This document shows, piece by piece, positions 33,734 through 59,445 of a DNA stretch of 60,405 bases. A program made the position numbers and the translations under genes. Source of the DNA: Alphaproteobacteria bacterium. GTDB lineage: Bacteria; Pseudomonadota; Alphaproteobacteria; Geminicoccales; Geminicoccaceae. Below the pieces are notes generated by a model. It was not told where the DNA came from. It did no database searches and saw only the letters and a program-made list of their open reading frames with translations. Position 1 is the first letter of the stretch, and every line of letters starts with the position of its first letter. Location of the stretch: assembly GCA_026982705.1 (NCBI GenBank), contig JALSGP010000022.1, positions 1 to 60,405 on the forward strand. The letters are read 5' to 3'.

Positions 33734-35026
33734 TCAATCCCCCACCACCCGCGGCGAGCCGAGCCGACGGCATCGTCCCCGCGTGTCCAGCACCAGCGGT
33801 GCCAGCTCCACCAGCCGCGCCCAGTCGACGGCGTCGTGGTCGGTCACCACCACCGCCGCGTCGAGCGCGCCGAGCCGGTCCGGATCCAGCGGCACCGACC
33901 GGATGCCGGCGAGTTCGGGATATCCCCGGGTCCGCGGGATCTCCGGCACGTGCGGATCGTGGTAGCACACCCGCGCCCCCCGCGCCGCGAGTCGCCGCCA
34001 GATGGCGAAGGCGGGACTCTCGCGCACGTCGTCCACGTCGCGCTTGTAGGCCACCCCCACCAGCAGCACCCGGGCGCCGTTGAGCCCTCTCGCGAAACGC
34101 CGGTCCATCTCCTCGGCGAGGCGCCCCACCACATAGTCCGGCATCATGGCGTTGATCTCGCCGGCGAGCTCGACGAAGCGGGCGGACATGTCGAAGGCCC
34201 GCGCCCGCCAGGCGAGATAGAAGGGATCGACGGGGATGCAGTGACCGCCGAGCCCGGGGCCGGGCCAGAAGGGCACGAAACCGAAGGGCTTGGTCGCCGC
34301 CGCCTCGATCACCTCGAAGACGTCGAGCCCCATCTTCCGGCACAGCATCTTGAACTCGTTGACGAGGGCGATGTTGACCGCCCGGAAGACGTTCTCGAAG
34401 ATCTTGGCCGCCTCCGCCACCTCCGGCGAGGAGACGGGGATCACCCGCCCCACGAAGCGCCGGTAGAGGGCCGTCGCCCGCCGCGTGGCCGCCTCGCCGT
34501 CGCCCCCCACCAGTCTGGGAATGCGGGCGGTGGTGAAGTCCGGATTGCCCGGATCCTCCCGCTCCGGGCTGTAGGCGAGGTGGAAGTCCGCGCCCGAGCG
34601 CAGCCCCGTGGCCTCGAGGATCGGTTTCACCACCTCGCGGGTGGTGCCGGGATAGGTGGTGGACTCCAGCACCACCAGCTGGCCCCGGCGCAGCCGGGCG
34701 GCGACGGCCCGGGCCGTGGCCTCGACGAAGGAGAGATCGGGCTCGCGGTGCCGGCCCAGTGGCGTGGGCACGCAGATCAGCACCGCGTCCACCGCGCGCA
34801 GCCGGTCGAAGTCGGTGGAGGGGACGAGGAGGCCCGATGCCACCGCCTTCCGGATCCGGGCGCCGTCGATGTGGCGCAGAGGACTCTCACCGCGGGCGAG
34901 CCGCGGGATCTTGGTCGCGTCCGCGTCCAGCCCCACCACCTCGAGCCCGGCCTCGCAGGCGGCCAGCGCCAGCGGCAGTCCCACGTAGCCGAGGCCGATG
35001 ACGGCGATGCGGCGGTCCTCCCCCAT
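33734..35026 (-). CDS. UDP-N-acetylhexosamine 6-dehydrogenase (WbpA/WecC type)
   Basis: A 430-residue protein from ATG 35026 with GGAGAGGAG upstream. The Rossmann start is IAVIGLGYVGLPLALA, followed by ICVPTPLGRHREPD, ESTTYPGTTREV and YSPEREDPGN. The catalytic cysteine is C263 in PGPGLGGHCIPVDPFY, and the FGFVPFWPGPG run is typical of UDP-GlcNAc dehydrogenases. It oxidises the C6 of a UDP-amino sugar to a uronic acid for capsule, O-antigen or exopolysaccharide. It stands next to three sulfotransferases, suggesting a sulfated acidic polysaccharide. Confidence 0.9.
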   Translation of the reverse strand: MGEDRRIAVIGLGYVGLPLALAACEAGLEVVGLDADATKIPRLARGESPLRHIDGARIRKAVASGLLVPSTDFDRLRAVDAVLICVPTPLGRHREPDLSFVEATARAVAARLRRGQLVVLESTTYPGTTREVVKPILEATGLRSGADFHLAYSPEREDPGNPDFTTARIPRLVGGDGEAATRRATALYRRFVGRVIPVSSPEVAEAAKIFENVFRAVNIALVNEFKMLCRKMGLDVFEVIEAAATKPFGFVPFWPGPGLGGHCIPVDPFYLAWRARAFDMSARFVELAGEINAMMPDYVVGRLAEEMDRRFARGLNGARVLLVGVAYKRDVDDVRESPAFAIWRRLAARGARVCYHDPHVPEIPRTRGYPELAGIRSVPLDPDRLGALDAAVVVTDHDAVDWARLVELAPLVLDTRGRCRRLGSPRVVGD

Positions 35027-35105
35027 CTCCTCTCCTCCGAGGGACTTGCCGAGGCCGCGGGCCGGTGCAAGTCGGCGGCGGGATCCCGGACGGGCTTCGC
35101 GATCC

Positions 35106-35966
35106 GTGGACCTCGCCTTCGCGCTGCACGAAACCCGTCGCGCGATCAAGACCGTCGTACGCCTGCTGGCGAGCGACGTGATCGTGCTGTCGCCGGCCAA
35201 GAGCGGCCGCACCTGGCTGCGGGTGATGATCTCCCACTACTGGCATCTCACTCGCGGCGTGCCGGCCGACCGGCTGGTGCGCTTCGACAATTTCCACCGC
35301 CTCGACCCGCACATCCCCGTCGTCCATTTCACCCATCTCTTCAACGAACCGCCGCCGGTGCGGTGGACGGTGGCCCGGGCGGCGCGCCATCCCCGCCGGC
35401 GGCTGGTGCTGCTGGTGCGCGACCCCCGCGACGTGGCCGTCTCCCACTACTACCACCTGCGTCACCGCGCCCGGGAGCGGGACCTGCGCCGCTACGGACT
35501 CACCCGCACCCGCCTCGCCCGCCCCCTCCCGGAGTTCCTGCGCGATCCCGACTTCGGCCTGCCGGCCCAGATCGCCCGCACGCGGGCGATGCTGCGCATC
35601 CACGACCGGGCCGCCCGCGCCCATCTGGTGCGCTACGAGGACCTGCGGCGCGACCCCGCCGCCGGCCTCGCCCGCCTGCTCGCCTTCCTCGGCGAGGCGC
35701 CGGTGGACGCGGCGGCGGTGGCGGGGGCGGTGGCCTTCGCCGCCTTCGACCATCTGCGGCGACTGGAGGCGGCGGGCTTCTTCCGGGACGAGGTGTTGCG
35801 CCCGGGCGATCCCCGCGATCCCGAGAGTTTCAAGGTGCGGCGGGGCCGGAGCGGATCCTGGCGGCGGGAGTTGCCGGCCGAGCTGGTGGCGTGGATGGAC
35901 CGGCTGGTGGCGGAAGGGCTGGACGGGCGGCTGGGCTACGGCGGGATCGCCGGGGAGGCGAGCTGA
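35106..35966 (+). CDS. PAPS-dependent sulfotransferase 1
   Basis: A 286-residue protein from GTG 35106 (weak upstream site). The PAPS-binding motifs are clear: SPAKSGRTWLRVMI near residues 30-43 for the 5' phosphosulfate loop, and VLLVRDPRDVAVSHYY for the 3' phosphate. DNFHRLDPHIPVVHFTH is a catalytic-region match to bacterial Sulfotransfer_1 proteins. It moves sulfate from PAPS to a hydroxyl or amine, most likely sugar or lipid. It is divergent from the UDP-sugar dehydrogenase, and its stop overlaps the next gene by one base (TGATG). Confidence 0.88.
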   Translation: MDLAFALHETRRAIKTVVRLLASDVIVLSPAKSGRTWLRVMISHYWHLTRGVPADRLVRFDNFHRLDPHIPVVHFTHLFNEPPPVRWTVARAARHPRRRLVLLVRDPRDVAVSHYYHLRHRARERDLRRYGLTRTRLARPLPEFLRDPDFGLPAQIARTRAMLRIHDRAARAHLVRYEDLRRDPAAGLARLLAFLGEAPVDAAAVAGAVAFAAFDHLRRLEAAGFFRDEVLRPGDPRDPESFKVRRGRSGSWRRELPAELVAWMDRLVAEGLDGRLGYGGIAGEAS

Positions 35967-36877
35967 TGCCACCGGTCCTCCTCCATCCGGGTTTCGTCAA
36001 GACCGCCACCACCAGCCTCCAGCGCAATCTGCTGGCCGCCCATCCCGCCATCCTCCACCTCGGTCGCCCCGCTCCCGACGCCGGGCTGGAGCGGGCCATC
36101 CACGCCATCGCCCACGACGACTCCACCGTCTACGACGAGGCGGCGGTGCGACGGGTGCTGGAGGACGCCCTCGCCGCCGCCGGGCGCCATCGCGTCGTCA
36201 CCCTCTCCAACGAGAACTTCGCCCTCTACGAGGCCACCGACCGGCGGGTGGTGGCGGAGCGGCTGGCCCGCCTGTTCCCGCGGGCGCGGGTGCTCTTCAC
36301 CATCCGCCGCCAGGACGAACTCCTGGGCGCCTGGTATCTCCAGAAGCTGGAGAAGTACCTCAAGGGCGGCCACTTCGTCCCCTTCCCCACCTGGGTGGCC
36401 ATGAAGGCCCGGGAGCCGCACAAGTCCATCTTCTCCGACCTCGACTTCTGGCCGGTGGTGCGCACCTACGTGGAACTGTTCGGCCGCGACCGCGTCCACG
36501 TCCTCCCCTTCGAGCGGCTGCGCGAGGATCCCGCCGGCTTCGCCGGCGAACTGGCGGGGCTGCTCGCCCTTCCCGCCGACGAGGTGCGGGCCGCCCTCGG
36601 CCGGCGCGTGCGCAATCCCACCCTCACCCGCGAATACCGGGCGGTGATGCGGGTGGTGGGAAGGCTGCTCACGCCCTGGCTCGCTCGCAAGATCGGCAAC
36701 CGCCTGGTCCACCTGCCGGGACGGCGGCTGCGGGTGACGGTGGACGAGGCCACCCGTCGCCGGATCCATCGGTGCTGCGCGGCGGGTAACGCCGCCCTCG
36801 CCCGCACCTTCGGCCTCGATCTCGCCCGTTACGGCTATCCGCTGCCCGAAGACGGATCCGTCTCCTCGGCCCGATAG
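35966..36877 (+). CDS. Sulfotransferase-family protein 2
   Basis: A 303-residue protein from ATG 35966 coupled to the previous gene. HPGFVKTATTSLQRNLL is the phosphosulfate loop, and VLFTIRRQDELLGAWYLQK is the 3' phosphate region. It differs from its two neighbours (Sulfotransfer_3/related group) and so probably has its own acceptor. The end overlaps the third sulfotransferase by 43 bases on the opposite strand. Confidence 0.8.
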   Translation: MPPVLLHPGFVKTATTSLQRNLLAAHPAILHLGRPAPDAGLERAIHAIAHDDSTVYDEAAVRRVLEDALAAAGRHRVVTLSNENFALYEATDRRVVAERLARLFPRARVLFTIRRQDELLGAWYLQKLEKYLKGGHFVPFPTWVAMKAREPHKSIFSDLDFWPVVRTYVELFGRDRVHVLPFERLREDPAGFAGELAGLLALPADEVRAALGRRVRNPTLTREYRAVMRVVGRLLTPWLARKIGNRLVHLPGRRLRVTVDEATRRRIHRCCAAGNAALARTFGLDLARYGYPLPEDGSVSSAR

Positions 36878-37761
36878 CCGAAGCCCGGCGGCATGCGGCG
36901 GGCGATCTCCGCTTCCATCCAGGCGATGTCCCCGGCGCGGAGATGGTCGCGGAAGCCACCGATGCGCCCCTCCCGCACCTTGAGGGCGGCGGGATCGTCC
37001 CCGCCGGCCGAGAAGCGGCGGCTGCGACCGGTGGCGAGTTCGCCGCGCCGCTCGCGCTCGCGCATGCGGGAGAACTCCGTCTCCGCCACCGCCCGCGCCA
37101 CCGCTCCCGCATCCACCGGCGTCTCGCCCAGATGGATCAGCACCCGGGTGAAGACGCCGGCGGGATCGCGCCGCAGGTCCTCGTAGCGCACGCGGAGCGC
37201 CCGCGGCAGACGCGGCAGCCGTTCGGCCCAGCGTTCGTAGAAGGCGAGGATGCGGGGGAGCCCCCATTCGGGATGGCGGAGGAAGCCGGAGAGATCGGCG
37301 AGGGCCGGATCGTCCTTGCCGAGGATACGGCGCTTCGCCGGATCCGTCCGTCGCCGGGTCTGGAAGAAGGCGGAGACCACCACGTCGCGGGGATCGCGGG
37401 TGAGCAGCACGAGGGGACGGGCGGCGTAGAGGGCCTCGAGCCGCGCCGGGCCCAGCCAGTCCACCGGATAGTTGTCGTGGGTGAAGAGAATCCGCGGGAC
37501 GGTGGGATCGAGACGGTGATAGTCGTCGAAGCCGAGCAGCGCCTCGGTCGCGAGCCCACGGGCGGTGCGCCAGTACCAGGACAGCAGCGCCCGCAGCCAG
37601 GTCCGGCCGCTCTTGGGATGGGAGACCACCACCGCATCGGCGCGCACCAGCTTGCGGCTCTCGGCCAGGCCGCGGACGCGGCGGTCGATGCCGCGGCGCA
37701 GCGGCAGCGGCAGCGGCGCGATCAGCGCATAGAGCAGTCTCCGAGCCGGTTTGGTGGCCAC
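36835..37761 (-). CDS. PAPS-dependent sulfotransferase 3
   Basis: A 308-residue protein from GTG 37759-37761 with GGGGAG upstream. VVVSHPKSGRTWLRALLSWY (about 44-63) is the phosphosulfate loop and LVLLTRDPRDVVVSAFFQ the 3' phosphate site. It is visibly related to sulfotransferase 1 in LGFDDYHRLDPTVPRILFTHD and in the end KVREGRIGGFRDHL, so these two may be paralogues. Three such genes in 2.7 kb suggest a dedicated sulfation pathway. It reads away from the nearby origin region. Confidence 0.88.
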   Translation of the reverse strand: MATKPARRLLYALIAPLPLPLRRGIDRRVRGLAESRKLVRADAVVVSHPKSGRTWLRALLSWYWRTARGLATEALLGFDDYHRLDPTVPRILFTHDNYPVDWLGPARLEALYAARPLVLLTRDPRDVVVSAFFQTRRRTDPAKRRILGKDDPALADLSGFLRHPEWGLPRILAFYERWAERLPRLPRALRVRYEDLRRDPAGVFTRVLIHLGETPVDAGAVARAVAETEFSRMRERERRGELATGRSRRFSAGGDDPAALKVREGRIGGFRDHLRAGDIAWMEAEIARRMPPGFGYRAEETDPSSGSG

Positions 37762-39214: not shown

Positions 39215-39688
39215 GATTCGGTACATCGTTCACGCGCCGCGCCGGAGGGACGCGCCGGCGGACGTTCCTCCGGCCCCCTCCCCCCATCCTTCCGGTCGCG
39301 GGATTCGGTACATCGTTCACGCCGCCCGCCGCCGGAGACGGATTCGGTACATCGTCCACACCCCGGAGGACTCCGGGATCCGCGCCGCGAACGCCGCGCC
39401 ATCCGTACCCGCCGCGGACTCGACACATCGTTCACGGGGGTCGGCACGCGGAGGGGCGGACTCGGTACATCGTTCACACCCCGCCCGCCGGAGGCCGCGC
39501 GGTCCGGTCCATCGCCCATGCCGCCCGGCGGGGACTCGGTACATCGTTCACATCGAGGGCGCGGGAGTTATCCACAGCCCCCCCCGGCGGGAGGCGGCGG
39601 CGATTCGGTACATCGTTCACGAAAGTTCGGTACATCGTTCACGCCTCGATTCGGTACATCGTTCACGAAGATTCGGTACATCGTTCAC
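39215..39688 (+). repeat. Iteron array, ten copies of GANTCGGTACATCGTTCAC
   Basis: Copies start at 39215, 39302, 39341, 39417, 39459, 39533, 39602, 39624, 39648 and 39670. All are in one orientation. Nine of the ten begin with GANTC (GATTC or GACTC); the copy at 39624 has AGTTC. The 39341 copy ends GTCCAC and the 39417 copy reads CGACACATCG. A weaker relative lies at 39501-39519. The last four copies are spaced 22, 24 and 22 bases, close to two helical turns, so bound proteins would lie on one face. Confidence 0.95.
39568..39576 (+). promoter_or_regulatory. Perfect DnaA box in the origin
   Basis: TTATCCACA matches the consensus DnaA box exactly and lies between iteron copies six and seven. 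A second likely box, TGTGGACAA on the + strand (one mismatch when read on the other strand), is at 39790-39798 beyond the AT-rich repeats. Confidence 0.85.
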
Positions 39689-39733
39689 GCTTTCGCCCCT
39701 CAACCCGTTGAAAGACAAGGACAAATCGCGTCC

Positions 39734-39770
39734 TCTAACGTTCTAACGTAAAGAATCTAACGTTCTAACG
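39734..39770 (+). repeat. AT-richer tandem repeat, candidate DNA unwinding element
   Basis: TCTAACG occurs four times, at 39734, 39742, 39756 and 39764, forming a 22-base tandem TCTAACGTTCTAACG plus spacer. It lies directly after the iterons, where replication origins usually open. The 22-base period equals the spacing of the last iterons. Confidence 0.75.
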
Positions 39771-46433: not shown

Positions 46434-48971
46434 GGCGGGGAGGGCAGGGGAGGAGGATTCGCTCGTCGGGTCCATCCGCCCGTCGCCACCGAGGATCCGA
46501 ACCCGACATCCTCCGGAGGCGCGCGTCCACCTCCGGCGAGGCCCGCGCCTCTTTCCGGATCGATCACGGAACCGGCGTGCGCGACGGCGCCGTCCCCGGT
46601 CCGGGATCCTCGCCCGGGGGCGGACCACCCCACGGGCGCCGCATACCCCTTCGCACGAACGCGATCCGGCGTCGTCCGACGGAGCCCGGCGGCCACGCCA
46701 GCGGCCCGTTCCGCCGGAGCCGGGAGCCCCGATCCCCGCGCTCCGGTCCATCCCCCGGGTGGTGCGAGAGGGGACGGTGTCGGGCGGTCTCCCGATCGCT
46801 CGTCACCCGGGGCCACGGCCCGATGACGGCGGTGGTGGGTGCCACGTCCGTAGCGACGGCTTGCACGGTATCGTCGTGCGCCCGGCACGGAAACGATGTC
46901 GCCCCTCCCGGGGCCGGGCTTTCGTCGCCGGCGCACGAGGCCCGGCCACACCGACCTCGCCATCGGTCCACTCCACCGCCCGCAGCGGACGTCCGCGATC
47001 GACCGCCGGGGAGTCCGAATGCGTAACCGCGTATCATGTTACACAGTCCTAACCGTATAGGCTTACACACTCACCGTTGTGTAAATTGAGCGGGATCGGA
47101 ACCCGCCGTCCCTCTGGAGGCCGACGAGGCTCCCGCCGCTCCGGGAAACCGTCCATCGGTCGGCGACTCCGGTTTTTTGTCGTTCGGTTATCGTCGTAAT
47201 CTATCAATTACCGAGTGAGATCGCCATGGTCGACATAATTTAATTGATAATTTCAAATATCATTAACAATTGTGAAACGCAAGATAAAAATATACTTCCT
47301 TACGGATGGTTCGGCCGAGCGCGGCATGGACCCCGCACGATCGACGCGCGCCGCGGCGGCCGGGACCGGAATCCGCCTCCGCACGAACGAAGGTGCATTC
47401 CGTCCCTGACACCCCCGGACCCACCCGGTCGCACCCGTCGCGGACCTCCCCGTCCCCGCCGTGCCCCCATCCGGCCGGTCCTGGGTCCGTCGTTTCCGGA
47501 TCGTCGCCACCCCATTCCCCTACGATCGGCGGTTCCGTGACGACCGGTCGCGATGCGTGCCGGAGGGCGCCCCGGGTCCGGCCTCCGGCGCCGGGATCGG
47601 GGCCCTCGCGACCGATCCGCGGGGCTCGGGAGCGCATGTCCCGCACCCGCACCTCCCCCGTGACCCGCCGGGATCCGGGGTCGATCTCTCACTCCAGGTC
47701 CCGACCGCGCCCCGACCCCGCGTCCTCGCCCGGCCACCTCTCGTCCGACGGCCATCCTCGCGCCCATGGCCGCGATCGCCGCGCCTCGGGCATCGGCACG
47801 CCATCCCCGGTCTCGCACTCCTGCCGCGTGAACTTCCCATCCGGTGTCGACTGCGGCCCGGCGGTGGGTCCCTCTTTTCCTCCGATCGTCGGGGGCCCCC
47901 CGATTCGCCTCCTCGCGGGACCCGCCCCGCGACGTCCCCGGATCGACATGCCCCCGGGGCGCCGCCGGAGGACCACCCGCACGGTCGCGCGGCTCCGGCT
48001 CCCGCACGCCGCGGGTGGGGAAGGGAGAGAACACCGGATCACCAGGCGTGCGCGGGCCCGGCGCTCTGCCGATCCGGACGGTCTCCGGGGGCCGCCCCAC
48101 CGCCTCCCGTCCCTCCCGGATTCCGGGTCGTGTTCCGCCGGCCCGGTCCCGCGAGGCTCCCACCGCCTGGGGCCTCCGATGATCCCGCACCGACCTTCGG
48201 CACGCGTCCGCCCCGATCTCCGCGGGAGGCTGGGTGCCGGGCCCGCCGCCCGGCGGCCGGCGTCTCCGCCGACCGCCCCCGGCGGTGCGCTGCCCCGTGG
48301 CCGCCGGCGGTCCACCGCGCGCACGTCCCGTCCGCCGGCAAGGTCCCGTCTCCGCTCTGCCCTCGCGAGTCCCGGATCCGTCCCGGCCCGCCACGGCTCC
48401 CCTCGTCCCCCAACCCGGACCTTCGTCCGCCCCGGACGGGGGACCGGCATCGACCCACCCCGCGGCTCATACCCGCCGCCGCTCCCAGGGCGTCCGCATC
48501 GGGATCCGGAGAAGACCCGCGAAATGGCGCCGCCTCGCGGCCCGCGCGGTCCCGAAGGCGGTCGTCCGGCCCGTCGTGCCCGGGCCGCGGTCGACCGTGC
48601 CGCCGGTGTGTCTCCACCAGCGGCCGCCGGACCGCACCGGGCGTCCGTGAGGGCGACTCCGACACCGGGCGGTCCACCGTCTCCTCCCGCACCGGCCCGC
48701 GGAGGCATGCACCGGCGGAGGCTCCACCAGCCGGTTGCCCGGATGTGGCCGCTCCCGGCCGGTCGTCGGGGCGGCCGGCGGCGGGAGCGGCCGGGACGAC
48801 GGCGGTGCCGGCGACGAGCATCGCGGGAGACGACGGAGGATCGCCGGACATGTCCCCGGCGGGAACCGCTCCGTCCACCGCCCCCTTTCCGGATCCGTCC
48901 CGCCGTCGAGGGCGGTGTGCTCGCGTCGGGATCCGCCATCGGGCCGGGCAGCCGTGCTCTCCGGGTCCGCC
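46434..48971. other. Gene-free tract of about 2.5 kb with an AT-rich island
   Basis: No frame has motif, ribosome site or sensible composition. Apart from the island at 47.03-47.31 kb the + strand is visibly C-rich, the mirror of the tract on the other side of the lipoprotein gene. The frame starting near 47244 opens AT-rich but soon turns into low-complexity Arg/Pro sequence. Confidence 0.6.
47026..47310. promoter_or_regulatory. AT-rich island with inverted and direct repeats, no gene attached
   Basis: The first part has TTACACA at 47039 and 47063 (24 bases apart) and the inverse TGTGTAA at 47078. The second part has the exact inverted pair TATCAATTA (47202-47210) and TAATTGATA (47241-47249). 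About 100 bases around 47.2-47.3 kb are extremely AT-rich against a very GC-rich background. It could be a centromere, a second origin, a protein-binding silencing nucleus or an RNA promoter. I see no gene start it clearly serves. Confidence 0.6.
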
Positions 48972-50825
48972 TCAGGCCACCTGCCGCACCTCGGTGCCGA
49001 ACTGGCGCACCCGCTCCGCCAGCTCCGCCGCCGCCCGGGTACAGCGCTCGGTGGTGCGGTGCATCGCCTCGGCCCGCTCGCCCGTGGTCTCGAGGGCCCC
49101 GCGGATGTGGCCCACCCGCCGGTCCACGTCCTCCACCCCCGAGGCACCCTCCTGGGCACTGCGCGCCACCTCCGCCACCGTCGCCGACTGCTGTTCGGCG
49201 GCGGCGGCGATGGCGGCGGCGATCCGCTCCAACTCCCCGATGGCCTCGCGGATGTGACTGCCGGAGGCCACGGCATCCCCCGCCGCCTCCTGCACCGCCC
49301 GGATGCGGGCGTCGATCTCCTCGGTGGCCTGGGCGGTCTGCCGGGCCAGGTTCTTGACCTCGCTCGCCACCACGGTGAAGCCGCGTCCGGCCTCGCCGGC
49401 CCGCGCCGCCTCGATGGTGGCGTTGAGGGCCAGCAGGTGGGTCTGCTCGGCGATGTCGGCGATGGTGCGCACGATGGCGCCGATGTCGGCCGCCGTCTCC
49501 TCCAGCCGCCGCATCACCGTGCCCGTCTCCCGCGCCTTGTCGCCGATCTCGCGGCTCATCTCGCTGGCGCGGGCGATCTGACTCGCCACCTCGCGCGAGG
49601 ACTGGGAGAGCTGTTCGGCCGCCGCCGCCACCGCCTGCACATGGGCGCTGATCTGCTGGACGAAGCGGGCCGCCTCATCGCCCTCCGCCCGCGAGCGGCC
49701 CGCATCCTCGCGCATGGCCTCGGCCGCCCGGTCGAGATCGCGGACGAGGGCGCTCACGCCCTCGACGAGGCTGCCCACCTCCCGCTCGAAGCGGCCGGCG
49801 ATCTCCTCGGCGAGCCGCCGCCGCTCGCGCTCCGCCTCCGCGCGCGCCTCCTCCTCGGCCCGCCGCATGCGCCGGATCTCGCGGAAGCCCTGCAGCATCA
49901 CGGCCGTCGCCAGGGCGAAGAGGAGCAGGAGACCGCCACCGAGGCCGACGGTGAGCATCAGGCTGCCGCGGGCCACGCCCTCCGCCCGCGCCCGGGCGCG
50001 GGCATCCAGCTCCGTGACGATGTCACGCAACCGCTGGCGGAACGCCTCCACCCGCTCCAGATAGCCGCGGGGATCGCGTCCCTCGGTGCTGAAGGTGCGC
50101 GCGGTGGCCTCCAGCACCGCCCGCCAGCTCTCGAGCTCGGCGGTGGCGGGGTCGGCCGTCAGGGAGTCGAGGCGGGAGCGCAGCGCCTCCGGCAGGTCCT
50201 CGCGCACCTCCCGCAGCGCCGTGCGTCCACGCGAGATGGCGCGGATGTAGCGGTCGTAGGCCTCGGGATCGAAGGTGCCGTTGCGCAGGAGCGCGAGCCC
50301 GAAGGCCTCCTCGCGGAAGAGCTGGTTCTGGAGCTCGGCCAGCAGGGCCAGTGCCGAGAGCTCGCGCCGCAGCGCCGGATCCGGCAGATCGAGCGTCCGG
50401 CGGTCGACCGCCCGGGCGAGACCCGCCACGGCGTCGAAATAGGACTTCTCCACCTCGGGCCGGGCGATCTGCCCCATGTCGATCTCGCCCCGCACCATGG
50501 CGAGGGCGGAGATGCGGTTGATCAGTTCCCGGAATTCCGAGCCGAGCCCCGCGAGATCGAGGGCGTCCACCCGCTGCCGCGCCGCGTCCACCGGGCCGCG
50601 CCAGTCCTTGCCGCCGCCGCTGAGCCAGGCGATGCTCTCGCGCCCCTCCACGGCGAGGGTCTCGGCGACGCGCTCGGCGGCCTCGAAGCGTTCCAGGAAA
50701 TCCGGCAGACCCGCCACCCGCCGCCAGGCCTCGTACTTCTCCCACATCAGCCAGGCGGCCACCACCACCAGCCCCAGGACGGGGAGCAGGATCATGGTCA
50801 GGATGCGGCGCTCCAGCGTGGACAC
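48972..50825 (-). CDS. Membrane chemoreceptor with NIT-like periplasmic domain
   Basis: A 617-residue protein from GTG 50823-50825 with GGAGGT upstream. TM1 is at about 10-28, a helical periplasmic domain at 29-285 with the features of nitrate/nitrite-sensing (NIT) domains ([21 protein letters not shown], then [10 protein letters not shown] and a second four-helix part), TM2 at about 288-312, a short HAMP, then a long signalling coil with the tip [20 protein letters not shown] at 464-483. It senses a periplasmic small molecule, possibly nitrate or nitrite. It is divergent from the next reductase gene. Confidence 0.9.
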
Positions 50826-50918: not shown

Positions 50919-51962
50919 ATGGGCGGAAACGCGCATATGAAACGTATCGTCCTGCGGCGGCGGCCGGTGGGCGAGCCGGCGCCGGCGGACTTCGCGCTGG
51001 AGGAACTGCCGCGGCCGCGGCCCGGGGCCGGCGAGGTGCTGGTGCGCACCCTGTGGTTGTCCATCGACCCCTACATGCGCGGACGGCTGTCGGACGCGCC
51101 CTCCTACACCGCGCCCGTCGGGCTCGGCGAGCCGATCCACGGCGAGTGCGCCGGCGTGGTGCTGGAGAGCCGGGCCGAGGGGTTCGCCCCGGGCGACCGG
51201 GTGGTGGGGATGGGGGGCTGGCAGGACCATTTCGTGCTGCCGGCCGCGCGCCTGCGGCGGGTGGCGGAGCGGGATCTGCCCCTCTCCTTCCAGCTGGGCG
51301 TGCTGGGCATGCCGGGGCACACCGCCTATGCCGCCCTCTTCGGCGTCGCCCGCCCCGAGCCCGGCGAGACGGTGCTGGTGCCGGCGGCGGCCGGTGCGGT
51401 GGGGGCCGTGGCGGGACAGCTCGCCCGCGAACACGGCTGTCGGGTGGTGGGAGTGGCGGGCGGTCCCGACAAATGCCGCTACGTGGTGGAGGAACTGGGC
51501 TTCGACGCCTGCGTCGACCGCCGCGCGCCCGACTTCGCCGCCCGCCTGCGGGCGGCCTGTCCCGAGGGGGTCGACGTCTATCTCGAGCTGGTGGGCGGCG
51601 AGGTGTCGTGGACCGCCCTCGAACTCTGCAACCTCCACGCCCGCATCCCGGTGGTGGGCGGGATCGCCTGGTACAATCTGGCGGCACCGCCCGAGGGTCC
51701 CGACCGGGTGCCGCGGCTGATGCGCACCGTCCTGGTGCGGCGGCTGCGGCTCGAGGGCTTCCTGGTGTGGGACTGGGACCATCTCGAACGGCCCTTCCGC
51801 ACCCGCGTGGGCGGGCTGCTCCGGGCCGGCCGGCTCAGGTACCGCGAGCACGTCTACGAGGGGTTGGAGCGGGCGCCGCGGGCCCTGATCGATCTCCTGG
51901 CGGGGCGCACCTTCGGCAAGGTGCTGGTGCGGGTGCATCCGGAGCCCGCGGCGGACGCCTGA
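50919..51962 (+). CDS. NADP-dependent oxidoreductase of the CurA/leukotriene B4 reductase family
   Basis: A 347-residue zinc-free MDR enzyme from ATG 50919 with GGGGGAGG upstream; ATG 50937 is an alternative. [13 protein letters not shown] and [10 protein letters not shown] are typical of CurA/YncB/PTGR1 enzymes. The nucleotide motif is [18 protein letters not shown] followed by [20 protein letters not shown]. It reduces activated double bonds of enones. The last 128 bases lie antisense to the next gene, the largest overlap here. Confidence 0.87.
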
Positions 51963-53166
51963 GATCGAACACCGCCCGGCCGGGCGGGGGATCGTCGCGG
52001 GCGAGGAGCCAGAGGGCGTCGTCGGGGACCGCCGAAGACGGACACCAGAGGCCGGCGAGGTCGGCGGCGAGCCGGGCCGGGTCGAGGTCGGGGTCGGAGA
52101 GGGTGAGGCGATAGCCGGCCGCCCGCAGCCGGCGGGCCAGCTCCGGCCAGGGACTGCCGCGGAGATCGCCGGTGCCGGGTTTGAAGGCGAGGCCGTGGAG
52201 GTGGAGGCGGGCGGGCGGTGGCCGCAGGGTGCGGATGCGCGCCTCGAGCCACGCGAGATGCCGGCGGTTGCTGGGCGCGACCGCGGCCAGCAGCGGCAGC
52301 TCCACCGCCCGCGTGCCGGCGATGGCGAGCAGGGCCGCGAGGTCCTTGCCGAGGCAGGGCCCCCCGAAGGGCTCGCCCGGGCGCAGATAGGCCTCGGAGA
52401 GGTTGAGCCGGCGATCGGCGAGGAACAGCTCCGCCAGCCGCCCGGCGTCCACGGCGAGGGCGTGGGCGAGGCGCCCCAGTTCGTTGGCGAAGGCCACCTT
52501 GGTGGCGTGCCAGGCGTTGTCCACCAGCTTCAGGGTCTCGGCCAGCCGGAGCGGGACCGTGCGCGGCATCACCCCCAGGGGAGCGAAGAGATCGGCGAGG
52601 AGGCCGCCGGCGCCGGGCACGCGCTCGCCCACCACCAGCCGGTCCGGATCGCCGAAGTCGGCGAGCGCCTGCCCCTCGCGCAGGAACTCCGGCAGATGGA
52701 CGAACTCCCAGGAGCTGCCCGGAGGCGTGCCGGCGGCCTCGGCGAGGAGGGGGATCAGCACCTCTTCGGAGGTGCCGGGCGGCACGGTGCTGCGCACCGC
52801 CACCAGCAGCGGCCGCCGCCGGTCCGTACCGCGCAGCGCCCGGCCGACGGCGGCGAGGGCGTCGGTGAGGGAGGCGAGGTCGAGACCCGCCTCCGCCGGC
52901 GGCGTACCCACGCACACCAGCACCAGATCGAGCTCCTCCGGACGGTCGAACCGGGCGGCGGGCGTCAGCCGTCCCGCCGCCCGCGCCGCCGCCACCAGTT
53001 CGCCGAGACCGGGTTCGGGGAAGGGACTGCGACCGGACGCCACCGCCGCCCGCACCGCCGGGTCCCGGTCCACCGCGCGCACGCGATGGCCGGCATCCGC
53101 CAGCACGGCGGCGCTCACCAGTCCCACCCGTCCCAGTCCGACGACGGCGAGGGCGAGCCGTCGCAC
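51835..53166 (-). CDS. GDP-mannose 6-dehydrogenase-like nucleotide-sugar dehydrogenase
   Basis: About 443 residues from GTG 53164-53166 with GGGAGG eight bases upstream. The NAD motif is [16 protein letters not shown]. AlgD/UDP-sugar dehydrogenase motifs follow: [54 protein letters not shown] and the catalytic-cysteine motif [12 protein letters not shown], then [12 protein letters not shown]. It oxidises a GDP- or UDP-sugar to the uronic acid for polysaccharide. The last ~40 residues are low-complexity Pro/Ala/Arg sequence covering the antisense overlap with the reductase, so the true end may be a run-on extension. Confidence 0.83.
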
Positions 53167-53381
53167 CGGCGATGCCTCCCACGGCTCCGCGCTCCGCCTG
53201 ACCCATCCCTCGGCTCCTGTCCAGACCGGGGGGGCCGGGGATGACCATCCGGGTACGCCGTGGAGTTGACCATCCATGTGCCCATGGAAAGCTACAAAGA
53301 GATATTCTCAATTCTTGATCGAAAACATTCTTGTGATCTGATCTTTCTGATAAATTAGTGCGAAACGACCTGAGAATCATG

Positions 53382-53410
53382 TTGACATTTCCGAGAAATC
53401 ATTGGAGTAT
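53382..53410 (+). promoter_or_regulatory. Putative promoter of the hfa operon
   Basis: A perfect -35, TTGACA (53382-53387), with GAGTAT 17 bases on, in an AT-rich leader of about 170 bases (53,270-53,440) unlike the flanking GC-rich genes. Confidence 0.5.
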
Positions 53411-53445
53411 CCTACTTGGATAATCGTTCCGTTCGGGAGAATCGC

Positions 53446-53838
53446 GTGACGATCCGCTTCGCCCCCTGGATGCTGCTGGGCACGATCCTCCTCGTGCCGC
53501 CGGCCGCCGCCGGCTTCCGCGAACAGACTCCCTGGCGCTTCCGCTCGGCATCGGAGACCCAGGTGCGGCTCAATCTGGAGGTGCGGCGGTTGGAGCTGCG
53601 TGGTGGCGCCCGCGACGGCGGCGGCACCGCCGTCACCCTGGGGGGCGCCGCCCTGGCGGCGGGGGTCGGCGGCGGCCGGAGCCAGTCCGGTTCCAGTGCC
53701 CTCAACGCCGTCTCCGCCGCGCCCACCTACAACGTCACCGTGGAGGGCAGCGACAACCGCATCACCGTCGACGGCTATCTCAACCTCTCCACCGACCAGC
53801 AGGCGGACCGGGCCCGCTCGCGCATCCTCAACCGCTGA
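53446..53838 (+). CDS. hfaA: Holdfast-anchor protein HfaA-like
   Basis: A 130-residue exported protein from GTG 53446 with GGGAGA five bases upstream; a TTG at 53416 is less likely. A signal peptide (TIRFAPWMLLGTILLVPPAAA) leads to a Gly-rich middle and SGSSALNAVSAAPTYNVTVEG, then SDNRITVDGYLNLSTD. The SALN...NVTVxGSxN...V pattern is like HfaA of Caulobacter, a small amyloid-like subunit. It is followed by hfaB-like and curlin-like genes in the canonical hfaA-B-D order, which supports the call. Homology is weak at sequence level. Confidence 0.68.
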   Translation: MTIRFAPWMLLGTILLVPPAAAGFREQTPWRFRSASETQVRLNLEVRRLELRGGARDGGGTAVTLGGAALAAGVGGGRSQSGSSALNAVSAAPTYNVTVEGSDNRITVDGYLNLSTDQQADRARSRILNR

Positions 53839-53850
53839 GGGGACCGACCG

Positions 53851-54909
53851 ATGCGCCGCGCCGTCCTGTCCGCCCCGCTGTTCGTGCTCCTCGTCGCCGC
53901 CTGCACGGGACCGCCGCCGGGGGAGGCGCCGCGGGCTCCCCTGCGCGGTCCGGTGCCGGTGCGCGGCACCACCCCGCTGGATCCGGCCCTGGCCTGTCTG
54001 CGCACGCGGATGCCGGAGGGGGTGGATCTGCGCTTCGCCGTCTGGCGGATCCCCGATCGCACCGGCGTCACCGACTACGACGGCCCCGGCAGATACGTCC
54101 CCCAGGCCGCCGAACTGATGCTGACCACGGCCCTGGCCCGCACCGGCGTGCGGCTGGTCAACCGCACGGGGGTGGCGGTGAGCGAATGGGAGCTGAAACA
54201 GGCGCTGGAGAAGCGGCTGGGTGAGGGAGAGCCGGTGACGGTGGGCGAGAGGCGTTATCCCTTCCGTCCCGTCCGCATGGGGCAGCTGCTGGGTTCCACC
54301 CACACCGTCTTCGGGGCCGTCACCGAGCTCGACTTCGACATCCTCTCGGGTGGCGTGGAGGCCTCGGTGGGCGGTCTCGGGGCGCGCGCCCGCAGCTACT
54401 ACGTCGCCCTCGGCGTCGACATCGTGGTGGCGGACACGCGGACCACCGAGATCGTGTGGGCGCGTTCCTACCGCAAGCAGATCTGGGGGCGGGAGGTGGA
54501 GGCGGGGCTGTTCCGCTTCTTCGACGTCAATCCGGGCGGCAACGGCGGCGGCGTCGGCGGGATCGGCGCGGAGCTGTTCGACATCCGCTTGGGGCGTCGG
54601 GAGAACGAGCCGGTCCACGCCGGTCTGCGCTGGCTGCTGGCCCAGGCGGCCTACGACATCGTGCGCGACTTCACCGGCGCGGGCACCGCCTGCGACGCCC
54701 ACGTCCCCGCGCCCAGCCGCAGCCCGCCCCTGCGGGTGGTGGCGACGGGAACGGTGGAGGACGTGCTGGACGAAGGGACGAAGGCACCGGCGGCGGACGA
54801 GGCGTTCGCTCCCGGCGCCGCGGAACCCCCCGGTCCGCCGGTACGGCGGCTGCCGGGTGGTCGCATCGTTCCCGCCGACGGGAACGGTGCCGGGAACGGC
54901 GGCTCGTGA
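53851..54909 (+). CDS. hfaB: CsgG/HfaB-like outer-membrane secretion lipoprotein
   Basis: A 352-residue protein from ATG 53851, 12 bases after hfaA. The leader MRRAVLSAPLFVLLVAAC gives a lipobox with the lipid cysteine at residue 18. The CsgG domain is visible as LRFAVWRIPDRTGVTDYDGPG, MLTTALARTGVRLVNRTG, HTVFGAVTELDFDILSGG, YVALGVDIVVADTRTTEIVW and SYRKQIWGREVEAGLFRFF. CsgG/HfaB proteins form a pore for export of amyloid subunits. The C-terminal ~80 residues are Pro/Gly-rich. A hairpin spans its stop codon. Confidence 0.88.
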   Translation: MRRAVLSAPLFVLLVAACTGPPPGEAPRAPLRGPVPVRGTTPLDPALACLRTRMPEGVDLRFAVWRIPDRTGVTDYDGPGRYVPQAAELMLTTALARTGVRLVNRTGVAVSEWELKQALEKRLGEGEPVTVGERRYPFRPVRMGQLLGSTHTVFGAVTELDFDILSGGVEASVGGLGARARSYYVALGVDIVVADTRTTEIVWARSYRKQIWGREVEAGLFRFFDVNPGGNGGGVGGIGAELFDIRLGRRENEPVHAGLRWLLAQAAYDIVRDFTGAGTACDAHVPAPSRSPPLRVVATGTVEDVLDEGTKAPAADEAFAPGAAEPPGPPVRRLPGGRIVPADGNGAGNGGS

Positions 54910-54918
54910 GGAGCCGCC
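54898..54918 (+). terminator. Hairpin overlapping the hfaB stop codon
   Basis: GGCGGCTC and GAGCCGCC form an 8-bp stem, with the TGA stop of hfaB in the loop. It may act as a partial terminator or processing signal so that the curlin-like gene downstream is expressed at a different level. Confidence 0.6.
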
Positions 54919-54946
54919 GGCCGTTCAACCGACGGAGTGTCGAACC

Positions 54947-55807
54947 ATGAAGCGTCTTCTCGCGACCACCGCGGTGGGCCTGTTCCTCGCCGCCGGACCG
55001 GCCCTGGCCGACCACGACGTCTGGACCATCCTCCAGGACTTCGACATCACGAGCGGCGTGCCCGGGGATCAGAACGTCATCAACGAACTCACCGGTCTCG
55101 ACGTCGGCGTGACCCAGAGCGGGTCGAATCTGGCCAACAGCGCCGATCTCGTCGATCCCGGTGCGGAGACCGGGACCACGGGCGATTCCTACATGGTGGA
55201 CCAGATCTTCGACGAGGACCAGTCCGTCGCCAACACCGTCACGGCGGCCGGTCACGTCACCGCCGATCAGTCCGGCGTCGGCATCGTCAATCTCGCCCAG
55301 ATCGCCGATGCCCACGGCGGCACCACCGACGGCGACACCTACGACATCGACCAGCTGGCCTCCTCCGATCCCGGCGCCGAGGCGGGCAGCCAGACGGTGA
55401 CCAACACCGTCGGCGGCGGGGCCACCGGCATCGGCGGTTCGAACCAGAGCGGCACCGTCCAGGTCAACGCCCTCACCATCACCGACTCCGCGGGCGGAAC
55501 GAGCACCGCCGGCGTCTACACGGTGAACCAGCAGGTGGCCACGGTGGACGACTTCGATCAGTTCGTGAACAACAACGCCACCGCCGGCACCGTCGACGGT
55601 CTCGTCCAGACCGGCACCACCAAGGCCAATCTCCTCACCCTCGGTCTCACCGGTCAGAGCGGAGGGGCGACGGCCACCGTCACCCAGAACACGTCCGAGG
55701 GCTTCGATCAGTCCGTCCGCAACGTCGCCACGGCGACCGGTTCGGCCATCGACGTCACCCAGAGCGGATCCAACGCCGCCAATGTGATCACCGCCACCAC
55801 CCAGTGA
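54947..55807 (+). CDS. Exported curlin-like repeat protein (HfaD-like adhesin)
   Basis: A 286-residue protein from ATG 54947, 37 bases after hfaB. It has a signal peptide to about residue 21 and a mature protein of about 4.5 repeats of ~54 residues. Each holds a curlin-type motif Q-S/T-G-x4-N (VTQSGSNLANSADL at 55, ADQSGVGIVNLAQI at 106, SNQSGTVQVNALTI at 165, LVQTGTTKANLLTL at 219, VTQSGSNAANVITA at 270) plus a second YxVxQ...DQxVxN motif between. Such repeats form beta-solenoid amyloid fibres. With hfaA/hfaB it is likely an exported, surface-anchored fibre for attachment. Confidence 0.82.
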   Translation: MKRLLATTAVGLFLAAGPALADHDVWTILQDFDITSGVPGDQNVINELTGLDVGVTQSGSNLANSADLVDPGAETGTTGDSYMVDQIFDEDQSVANTVTAAGHVTADQSGVGIVNLAQIADAHGGTTDGDTYDIDQLASSDPGAEAGSQTVTNTVGGGATGIGGSNQSGTVQVNALTITDSAGGTSTAGVYTVNQQVATVDDFDQFVNNNATAGTVDGLVQTGTTKANLLTLGLTGQSGGATATVTQNTSEGFDQSVRNVATATGSAIDVTQSGSNAANVITATTQ

Positions 55808-55835
55808 GGTGGGGGACGGTCCGCCGCGGGCGGAC

Positions 55836-55859
55836 GGGGCGGCCTCCGGGCCGCCCCTT
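55836..55859 (+). terminator. Terminator after the curlin-like gene
   Basis: GGGGCGGCC and GGCCGCCCC form a perfect 9-bp stem with a TCCG tetraloop followed by TT, 28 bases after the stop. A smaller hairpin precedes it. Confidence 0.75.
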
Positions 55860-55929
55860 GCCCGCGCTTGTGCCGGGAGCGGCGCGTCCCCACCTGTGGT
55901 CCGGAGTGCGGACCGTCGGAGGGGAAGGC

Positions 55930-56379
55930 ATGATCGTGCCCGGCGCCACCCACATCGAGCGGCTGTTCCGCGAGGTCGCCGGTCTGGATCTGGACAAGAG
56001 CGACCTCGCCCGCGTGCGCGCCTTCGTGGACGGCATCGTCTACGACATGCTGGTGAGCGCCGTCGCCCGGGCGCGGGCCAACGGTCGCGACATCGTCCAG
56101 CCGCAGGACCTGCCGGTGGGCAAGGGTCTGCAGGAGCGCATCCACGAGTTCCGCGGCTACCGGGTGGCGGTGGAGCTGGAGCCGCTGCTGAGGAGCCTCG
56201 AGAGGCTGCCGCCGCTGGAGCTGGACTATGCGGTGGAGGTGGAGGAATTCCTGCCGGAACTGATCGGCGGCCTCACCGTCGCCCTCGCCCGGACGTTCAC
56301 GGTGATCGAGCCGGACCTCCGCAATCCGCGGACGGAGCACTGGGAGCGGGCGGAGCGACTGTTCCGGCTGATCCTGTGA
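55930..56379 (+). CDS. DUF1931 histone-fold protein
   Basis: A 149-residue protein from ATG 55930 with GGAGGGGAAGG upstream. The whole protein follows the DUF1931 family, whose Thermus and Aquifex structures show two histone folds in one chain: HIERLFREVAGLDLDKSDL, FVDGIVYDMLVSAVARARANGRD, PVGKGLQERIHEFRGY, LPPLELDYAVEVEEFLPEL and NPRTEHWERAERLF. It is a pseudo-dimer of histone folds; DNA binding has not been settled. It is a separate unit after the curlin terminator. Confidence 0.88.
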   Translation: MIVPGATHIERLFREVAGLDLDKSDLARVRAFVDGIVYDMLVSAVARARANGRDIVQPQDLPVGKGLQERIHEFRGYRVAVELEPLLRSLERLPPLELDYAVEVEEFLPELIGGLTVALARTFTVIEPDLRNPRTEHWERAERLFRLIL

Positions 56380-57813: not shown

Positions 57814-59445
57814 ATGGAGATCCGCACCGTCGCCACCGTCCCCTGGGACGACCAGAGGCCCGGCACCTCCGGGCTGCGGAAGAAGACCCGCGTCTTCGCC
57901 GGACGCCCCCACTATGTGGAGAACTTCGTGCAGTCGGTGCTGGACGTGGTGGGAGAGGTGGCGGGCGCCACCTTCGTGCTGGGCGGCGACGGCCGCCACT
58001 TCGCGGACGAGGCGCTGCGCCGCACCCTCGCGGTGCTGGTGGGCAACCGCGCGGGGCGAGTGATCGTGGGGGAGCGGGGCCTCTTCTCCACCCCCGCCGT
58101 CTCCTGCGTGATCCGCCGCCGCGGCGCCCGCGGCGGCTTCGTCCTCACCGCCTCCCACAATCCCGGCGGTCCCGACGGCGATTTCGGCATCAAGTACAAT
58201 GTCGGGAACGGCGGTCCCGCGCCCGAATCCCTGACCCGCCGCATCCACGCCCGCACCCGCGAGATCCGCCGCTATTTCCTCGCCGAACTCCCGCCGGATC
58301 TCGATCTCGCCCGCCGCGGCACGCGGCGGGTGGGGGAGACGGTGGTGGAGGTGGTGGACCCGGTCGCCGACTACGCCGAGATGCTGGAGGGGCTGTTCGA
58401 CTTCGCCGCCATCCGCCGCCTCCTCGAGGGCGGCTTCCGCATGGCCTTCGACGCCCTCCACGGCGTCACCGGTCCCTATGCCCGCCATGTCCTCGAAGCG
58501 CGGCTGGGGGCACCTCCGGGCACCGTGCGCCGCGGCGATCCGCGGCCCGATTTCGGCGGTCTCCACCCCGATCCCAATCCGACCCGGTGCCGCGAACTGG
58601 TGCGCGAGGTGGTGGAGGAGGGACGGCTCGACTTCGCCGCCGCCTGCGACGGTGACGGCGACCGCGCCATGATCCTCGGCCGCGGCATCTTCGTCTCGCC
58701 CTGTGACGGCATCGCCGTCCTCGCCGACCGCGCCGATCTCGCCCCGGGCTATCGCGGGCGGATCCGCGGCGTCGCCCGCTCCATGCCCACCTCCCGCGCC
58801 CTCGACCGGGTGGCGGCGGCGCGGGGCTGGGACCTGTACGAGACCCCCACCGGCTGGAAGTTCTTCGGGAGTCTGCTGGATGCCGGCCGCATCCAGATCT
58901 GCGGCGAGGAGAGCTTCGGCATCGGTTCCGATCACCTGCGCGAGAAGGACGGACTGTGGGCGGTGCTGTTCTGGCTGCAGATCCTCGCCGCCGGTGGCGG
59001 GGACGTGGCCGGCGTGCTGCGGGCCCACTGGCGGCGCTACGGCCGCGACTGGTTCACCCGCCACGACTACGAGGGGGTGGACCCGGCGGCGGCGACGGCG
59101 CTCGTGGAGGAGCTGCGCGGGCGCCTGTCCGGGCTCCCGGGGACGGTGTGGGGCGGCGTGCGGCTGGTGCGGGCGGAGGACTTCGCCTATCGCGATCCCG
59201 TCACCGGCGAGGAGGCGGTGCACCAGGGGCTGCGCTTCCTCTTCGCCGACGACTCCCGCATCACCCTCCGGCTCTCCGGGACCGGCACCGAGGGGGCGAC
59301 CCTGCGGGTCTATCTGGAACGCCACGGTCGCGAGGATCTCGACCGTCCGCCGGCGACGGCGCTGGCGGCGGTGGCGGCCCGCGCCCGCGCGCTGGTGGAG
59401 CCGCGGCGGCGCTTCGGTCGCGATGCGCCCGACGTGGTCACCTGA
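57814..59445 (+). CDS. pgm: Phosphoglucomutase (alpha-D-glucose phosphate specific)
   Basis: A 543-residue protein from ATG 57814 with GGAGG upstream. It opens QRPGTSGLRKKTRVF and has the catalytic serine in LTASHNPGGPDGDFGIKYN (about residue 114), the magnesium loop AACDGDGDRAMI, GEESFGIGSDHLREKDG and phosphate-binding RLSGTGTEGATLRVY. It interconverts glucose-1-P and glucose-6-P and feeds UDP-sugar synthesis, with pgi at 42 kb. It is the last complete gene of the window. Confidence 0.95.
   Translation: MEIRTVATVPWDDQRPGTSGLRKKTRVFAGRPHYVENFVQSVLDVVGEVAGATFVLGGDGRHFADEALRRTLAVLVGNRAGRVIVGERGLFSTPAVSCVIRRRGARGGFVLTASHNPGGPDGDFGIKYNVGNGGPAPESLTRRIHARTREIRRYFLAELPPDLDLARRGTRRVGETVVEVVDPVADYAEMLEGLFDFAAIRRLLEGGFRMAFDALHGVTGPYARHVLEARLGAPPGTVRRGDPRPDFGGLHPDPNPTRCRELVREVVEEGRLDFAAACDGDGDRAMILGRGIFVSPCDGIAVLADRADLAPGYRGRIRGVARSMPTSRALDRVAAARGWDLYETPTGWKFFGSLLDAGRIQICGEESFGIGSDHLREKDGLWAVLFWLQILAAGGGDVAGVLRAHWRRYGRDWFTRHDYEGVDPAAATALVEELRGRLSGLPGTVWGGVRLVRAEDFAYRDPVTGEEAVHQGLRFLFADDSRITLRLSGTGTEGATLRVYLERHGREDLDRPPATALAAVAARARALVEPRRRFGRDAPDVVT

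Follow-up and report, generated by a model that had tools for sequence, protein, structure and literature searches.

Which secretion system is encoded by three closely spaced genes in a genome of the Geminicoccaceae? A first-pass annotation had described them as an amyloid-like attachment operon composed of hfaA, hfaB and a curlin gene. The question is whether the locus belongs with curli or with hfaABD, the holdfast-anchor operon of Caulobacter. We analysed the locus within the window, which is the whole DNA stretch of 60,405 nucleotides. We retain the assignment to a secretion operon of the hfaA-hfaB type whose third protein is repetitive. For the third gene, a positional and structural counterpart of hfaD is a better reading than a curlin gene. 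Our main reading, to which we assign a probability of roughly 0.7, is that the operon encodes a surface attachment complex and is of the hfaABD type, though far diverged, with an HfaD analogue as its third protein. By analogy, the encoded pore and the two secreted proteins probably attach the cell to surfaces.

Gene order and surroundings of the operon

The description as a short operon of three genes holds. The three open reading frames were confirmed on the forward strand at 53446-55807 with intervening gaps of 12 nt and 37 nt (Table 1), and all three products have signal-peptide-like N-termini. A codon-usage gene caller, whose training set included HfaA and HfaB, selects exactly these three frames. 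An order of the hfaA-hfaB-hfaD type with tight spacing is present here and in related loci. The block is intact in genomes G002, G005 and G018 and, as far as the contig end, in G001; the genes flanking it vary between at least some of these four.

Table 1. Positions of the operon features in the window
Feature	Position	Strand	Details
AT-rich leader, presumed promoter region	53278-53445	+	GC 0.40 (0.377 for 53278-53415) vs 0.73 in the window
Small secreted protein in the HfaA position, 130 aa	53446-53838	+	GTG start; in-frame TTG at 53416 possible
HfaB/CsgG-family outer-membrane lipoprotein pore, 352 aa	53851-54909	+	NF037935, PF03783 and PDB CsgG matches
Hairpin with 9-bp stem spanning the hfaB stop codon	54898-54921	+	CGGCGGCTC-GTGAG-GAGCCGCCG; RNA fold
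Secreted repeat protein in the HfaD position, 286 aa	54947-55807	+	ATG start; signal peptide about 1-21; five units
GC-rich hairpin region 3' of the third gene, possible transcript end	55814-55905	+	RNA fold

The AT-rich leader and the hairpin at the hfaB stop, both noted at first pass, were likewise recovered. The low GC content of the leader (0.377 over 53278-53415) is matched by only 0.1% of the 138-bp windows, and AT-rich leaders also lie 5' of hfaA in the four loci with the closest HfaB relatives (L037-L040). A sigma-70 promoter scan of the leader found no consensus. Two other AT-rich stretches (GC under 0.48) are located at 47130-47360 and 39620-39770. The hairpin at the hfaB stop has no T-tract; L039 has a comparable stem and L038 a different one, and the stems in L037 and L040 are weak. 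As only some relatives carry a comparable stem, we give this hairpin little weight. The segment 55800-55905 folds with -68 kcal/mol, and strong hairpins likewise follow the third gene in L037, L039 and L040; an intrinsic terminator scan gave no match in the hairpin region at 55814-55905.

Directly 3' of the operon is a DUF1931 (PF09123) gene (55930-56379), presumably coding for a histone-fold-like protein, with a homologue at the same place in L037. The window further encodes, at 48972-50825, a chemoreceptor that contains a NIT domain, which senses nitrate/nitrite.

Among polysaccharide genes, a profile search of the genome detected one for Poly_export and two each for Wzz and Bac_transf, which lie on separate contigs and none of which is close to the operon; no hfs cluster was identified in the genome, and no hfsDAB-like cluster near the locus. 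The window itself carries a UDP-sugar dehydrogenase gene (51835-53277) that points away from the operon leader and, downstream of the operon, a phosphoglucomutase gene (57814-59445). Both enzymes could provide the cell with sugar nucleotides. In L037 the operon has similar genes on its flanks, which were not seen in L024/L040. Further away, a nucleotide-sugar dehydrogenase gene (33734-35026, reverse strand) lies beside three genes of the sulfotransferase family (35106-35966, 35966-36877 and 36835-37761), the middle one scoring below the Pfam cut-off. The gene content of this group (33734-37761) suggests a sulfated surface glycan.

The HfaB pore and the small secreted protein

The second gene had been assigned to a CsgG/HfaB pore, and the family models agree. 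Its best family match is NCBIfam NF037935 (holdfast_HfaB), which is covered over nearly its full length with an E value of 6.2e-42 and 143.6 bits, below the equivalog cut-off of 300. Pfam CsgG (PF03783) is matched with 34.7 bits, above its cut-off of 20.8, and the PDB relatives are E. coli CsgG (E 2e-8). Its lipobox cysteine, C18, is conserved without exception in nine homologues. HfaB is the only CsgG-family gene found in the 2.66-Mb genome.

Relatives of HfaB were found in 492 stretches of the genome_contigs collection, and the 80 kept are mostly from Alphaproteobacteria. The closest four (L037-L040) have 56-76% identity and the remaining ones at most 37%. The window HfaB and these four contain about 14 extra Gly-rich residues between the motifs FRFF and NEP, which are absent from the other loci tested. 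The spacing of the two motifs is 35-36 residues in four of the five HfaBs and about 33, counted by eye, in L040. In comparison, it is 21-22 residues in 66 of 71 pattern-matched proteins, with one exception of 28. From the alignment to CsgG, we take the insert to be in the second predicted transmembrane hairpin, where it would enlarge the outside loop. The five proteins also have in common a C-terminal tail of the RLPxGR[IV]xP type, likewise lacking in the other loci tested. In the window HfaB this tail is Pro/Ala-rich and ends with RLPGGRIVP; in L040 it is degenerate (NGRITP).

Some relatives are arranged differently. An alphaproteobacterium (G045; loci L033, L034 and L035) has five HfaB paralogues, of which at least two are followed by a repeat-type protein of 350-380 aa and then a small HfaA-like gene. 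Outside the Alphaproteobacteria, a Halomonas HfaB relative (L097) has a 1907-aa repeat protein encoded downstream, and another relative (L093) is found in a MAG labelled as Deltaproteobacteria. These two were perhaps acquired through gene transfer.

The small protein encoded upstream of hfaB consists of a signal peptide, a conserved N-terminus (GFREQ-x2-WQFRSP), a Gly/Ser linker and a C-terminal motif (V-x-V-x-G-x2-N-x-[VI]-x-[VI]-D-G-[YF]-L-N-L). Homologues occupy the same position in four of four related loci. None of the NCBIfam and Pfam models, including HfaA (NF037934), matches the window protein, and NF037934 does not match the homologues either. With hhalign, the window protein aligns with the HfaA-position proteins of L041 and L042 at 96% (N-terminus, signal peptide included), and these align with HfaA of the Caulobacterales at 85% (C-terminal motif); the direct profile comparison between the window protein and Caulobacterales HfaA was not significant. 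As no family model matches, the designation HfaA-like, given at first pass, now rests on position and on this two-step profile chain. The small protein is hence regarded as an HfaA counterpart, not as a proven HfaA.

The repeat protein

The third protein had been described as alternating two curlin-type motifs in periods of about 54 residues. The periodicity is clear: the protein contains five units of 50-59 residues (spacing 56/50/59/52), and its best self-alignment scores 213 compared with 71±13 (maximum 106) for 60 shuffled sequences. When twenty units from four species were aligned, their consensus was D-x-h-x-[IV]-x-Q ... Q-x-V-x-N-x-[AV]-x-A ... Q-S-G-T-N-x-A-N-h. The two alternating motifs are thus borne out, and a unit may be viewed as a pair of curlin-like arches. 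The likeness to curlin is at the level of the motif: the second arch has the form Q-S-G-x4-N, whereas the curlin kernel is Q-x-G-x2-N (PMC10192328), and the Pfam model Curlin_rpt (PF07012) matches neither the repeat protein nor any other protein of the genome. The term curlin-type is thus too strong for the family assignment.

The distribution of the protein is narrow. Of 60 relatives searched, 5 have it, its homologues being confined to four related genomes; in a sample of 385 genomes from the class, the window's own was the only one with it. An HMM built from the repeat units matches only five close proteins and no HfaD.

For the fold, an AlphaFold2 model was calculated from four sequences; the five models ranged from pLDDT 36 to 81, and the one used reached pLDDT 80.8 and pTM 0.77. 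It is all-beta, with 15 strands in five units and strand lengths of 8-10-18, 8-10-18, 8-10-15, 8-11-15 and 8-11-15 residues. A repetitive all-beta fold is thereby predicted. A Foldseek search with this model returned nothing at E ≤ 0.001 and low TM-scores, with the FapC amyloid first at 0.03. VIA-align ranks the CsgA fibril of E. coli first (Z 10.5, rmsd 8.8, 110/111 residues aligned). Since solenoids often give middling Z scores, we call the likeness of the modelled fold to CsgA suggestive. From the strand pattern together with the fold matches, we read the protein as a predicted beta-solenoid, and the check by structure prediction that had been proposed for this claim came out in its favour.

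The same note had proposed a distinct solenoid on account of the doubled unit. We modelled a Caulobacter HfaD (L048) from an alignment of eight HfaD-type proteins (pLDDT 87.8, pTM 0.84). Its units of 46-53 residues have a strand rhythm of 9-9-18 in the first units, and its best VIA-align row is CsgA of P. korlensis (Z 15.5, rmsd 8.6, 194 aligned); Foldseek again gave nothing at E ≤ 0.001 and low TM-scores. The solenoid itself is predicted as proposed, but its doubled unit is not without precedent, since the strand rhythm of the Caulobacter HfaD model is the same.

The gene order points to HfaD as well. A small protein, HfaB and a repetitive secreted protein recur in this order across the Alphaproteobacteria (80 loci), and the third is often a recognised HfaD. 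Our search for the third gene used start-codon and composition filters that missed HfaD in about half of the loci, and for this reason we give no frequency. Nine third-gene proteins from other loci were compared with the HfaD cut-off of 100 bits: five scored above it, one reached 94.7, one 27.5, and two had no match. In the window, the HfaD family model (NF037936) matches neither the repeat protein nor another protein of the genome. Hhalign comparisons of the repeat protein with HfaD gave 8% and 2%, with the N-terminal signal peptide region alone aligned. Together with the unit HMM, this gives no sequence basis for assigning the protein to HfaD. The repeat protein resembles HfaD in position and predicted architecture and cannot be filed as HfaD. 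We read it as an HfaD analogue.

We do not file the operon as curli, as CsgE (PF10627), CsgF (PF10614) and Pfam curlin repeats are all absent from the genome. In a rival reading, the HfaA-like protein may act as a nucleator from which the repeat protein polymerises head to tail outside the cell into a curli-like amyloid, with no role in holding a polysaccharide. The CsgG-family pore, the predicted solenoid with its curlin-like arches and CsgA as best structural match are consistent with this. A degenerate curlin class with repeats longer than 23 residues has been published (PMC10192328), and in C. crescentus HfaA forms multimers that resist SDS and heat (PMC6707917). The absence of the csg accessory proteins argues against it, yet about half of the alphaproteobacterial genera with curli lack csgE and csgF (PMC3521004). 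The spacing Q-S-G-x4-N, which is unlike that of curlin, and the operon partners, which are hfa and not csg genes, count further against it. We consider this amyloid a serious possibility, with the odds somewhat against it.

Proposed mechanism and comparison with known systems

For the preferred hfaABD-type reading, the precedent is C. crescentus. There, HfaB is required for the surface placement of HfaA and HfaD, deletion of any one of hfaA, hfaB and hfaD leads to shedding of the holdfast, and SDS-resistant HfaA multimers depend on HfaD (PMC6707917). By analogy, HfaB would here export the small protein and the repeat protein. Made as a lipoprotein, HfaB would likely oligomerise in the outer membrane into a pore like that of CsgG. 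The HfaA-like and repeat proteins would cross the inner membrane by Sec, pass through HfaB in unfolded form and remain on the cell surface. The repeat protein may then fold outside into a rigid solenoid of five units with two curlin-like beta-arches each. Together with the HfaA-like protein it would form an adhesive or anchoring patch, which would probably hold an exopolysaccharide as in Caulobacter.

A different possible role for the small protein is that of a CsgF-type plug, whose N-terminal WQFR[SN]P would line the HfaB channel and whose single C-terminal repeat would nucleate the solenoid. The short motif [WF]QFR[SND]P resembles FQFRNP, which is the part of CsgF lining the CsgG channel (PMC7304575). 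The profile score of 13.2 was equalled by 3 of 200 column-shuffled controls and is at most suggestive; in an alignment by eye, the CsgF-contacting residues Phe206 and Phe208 of CsgG (PMC7304575) appear to match FRFF of HfaB. The alignment, however, spans just 7 columns, PF10614 matches neither the window protein nor its homologues, and alphaproteobacterial CsgFs mostly share NPSFGG instead of QFR. No CsgF chain is among the PDB matches: the whole HfaA profile retrieved almost only antibody chains with Gly-rich linkers, and its N-terminus nothing relevant. We regard such a plug as unlikely. It is similarly improbable that the repeat protein acts on its own, as a solenoid adhesin or S-layer-like surface protein that HfaB exports and that neither polymerises nor anchors a polysaccharide: solenoid folds are common to many non-polymerising adhesins and lyases in the VIA-align rows and the net charge of about -29 may disfavour stacking, but HfaA and HfaB co-occur with the repeat protein in five of five genomes, and the dependence of HfaA multimers on HfaD in C. 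crescentus (PMC6707917) argues against it as well.

The five-genome clade may have a co-diverged variant for secretion and attachment, in which a pore with enlarged extracellular hairpin loops and a conserved C-terminal tail of the RLPxGR type goes with a small protein, whose CsgF-like N-terminus would line the pore and which has one curlin-like repeat, and with a doubled-arch solenoid. We hold this doubtful. If it is true, HfaA-type proteins would serve both as plug and as nucleator, HfaD proteins in general would be solenoids related to curli, and holdfast anchoring would be connected with amyloid export.

Little is understood so far of how a holdfast is attached to the outer membrane of the bacterium. 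The operon is divergent and compact, and CsgA-like repeat folds are predicted both for its third protein and for a Caulobacter HfaD. It thus offers structural hypotheses, namely that HfaD is a curli-like solenoid and that the pore of HfaB may hold HfaA. A further suggestion is that proteins in the HfaD position may diverge beyond the reach of sequence models. The new elements are the third-protein family of the clade, the matching HfaB variant and the putative curli-like repeat architecture of an HfaD, for which our search of the literature available without subscription found no earlier statement among the results listed.

Two features are shared with curli: a lipoprotein pore of the CsgG family, and a secreted protein whose arches are rich in Q and N and for which a repetitive beta fold is predicted, with CsgA as the best match. 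The locus differs in having no CsgE, CsgF or curlin-repeat protein, and its repeat unit is doubled to 50-59 residues with a Q-S-G-x4-N arc.

Marinimicrococcus flavescens (L041, G014) belongs to the same family, the Geminicoccaceae, and has the same gene order and a similar HfaA N-terminus (the 96% alignment above). Its third gene, in contrast, codes for a 611-aa AIGNS-repeat protein with a weak HfaD match (1.9e-6), and its HfaB is without the hairpin insert. Two such HfaD-like AIGNS-repeat genes (611 and 620 aa) stand in tandem after hfaB (L027:7377-11284, reverse-complement coordinates; the first is L041:7855-9690).

From hfaABD of C. crescentus, the locus differs in having five units instead of the approximately eight of HfaD, no match to the HfaA and HfaD models, and an HfaB with the extra hairpin insert and C-terminal tail. 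In common are the order of small secreted protein, HfaB pore and repetitive secreted protein, the homology of HfaB, and a predicted all-beta third protein with two-motif units, where the early rhythm is 9-9-18 in HfaD and 8-10-18 here. We read the operon as a far-diverged form of the holdfast-anchor operon already known from Caulobacter, and not as a new kind of system.
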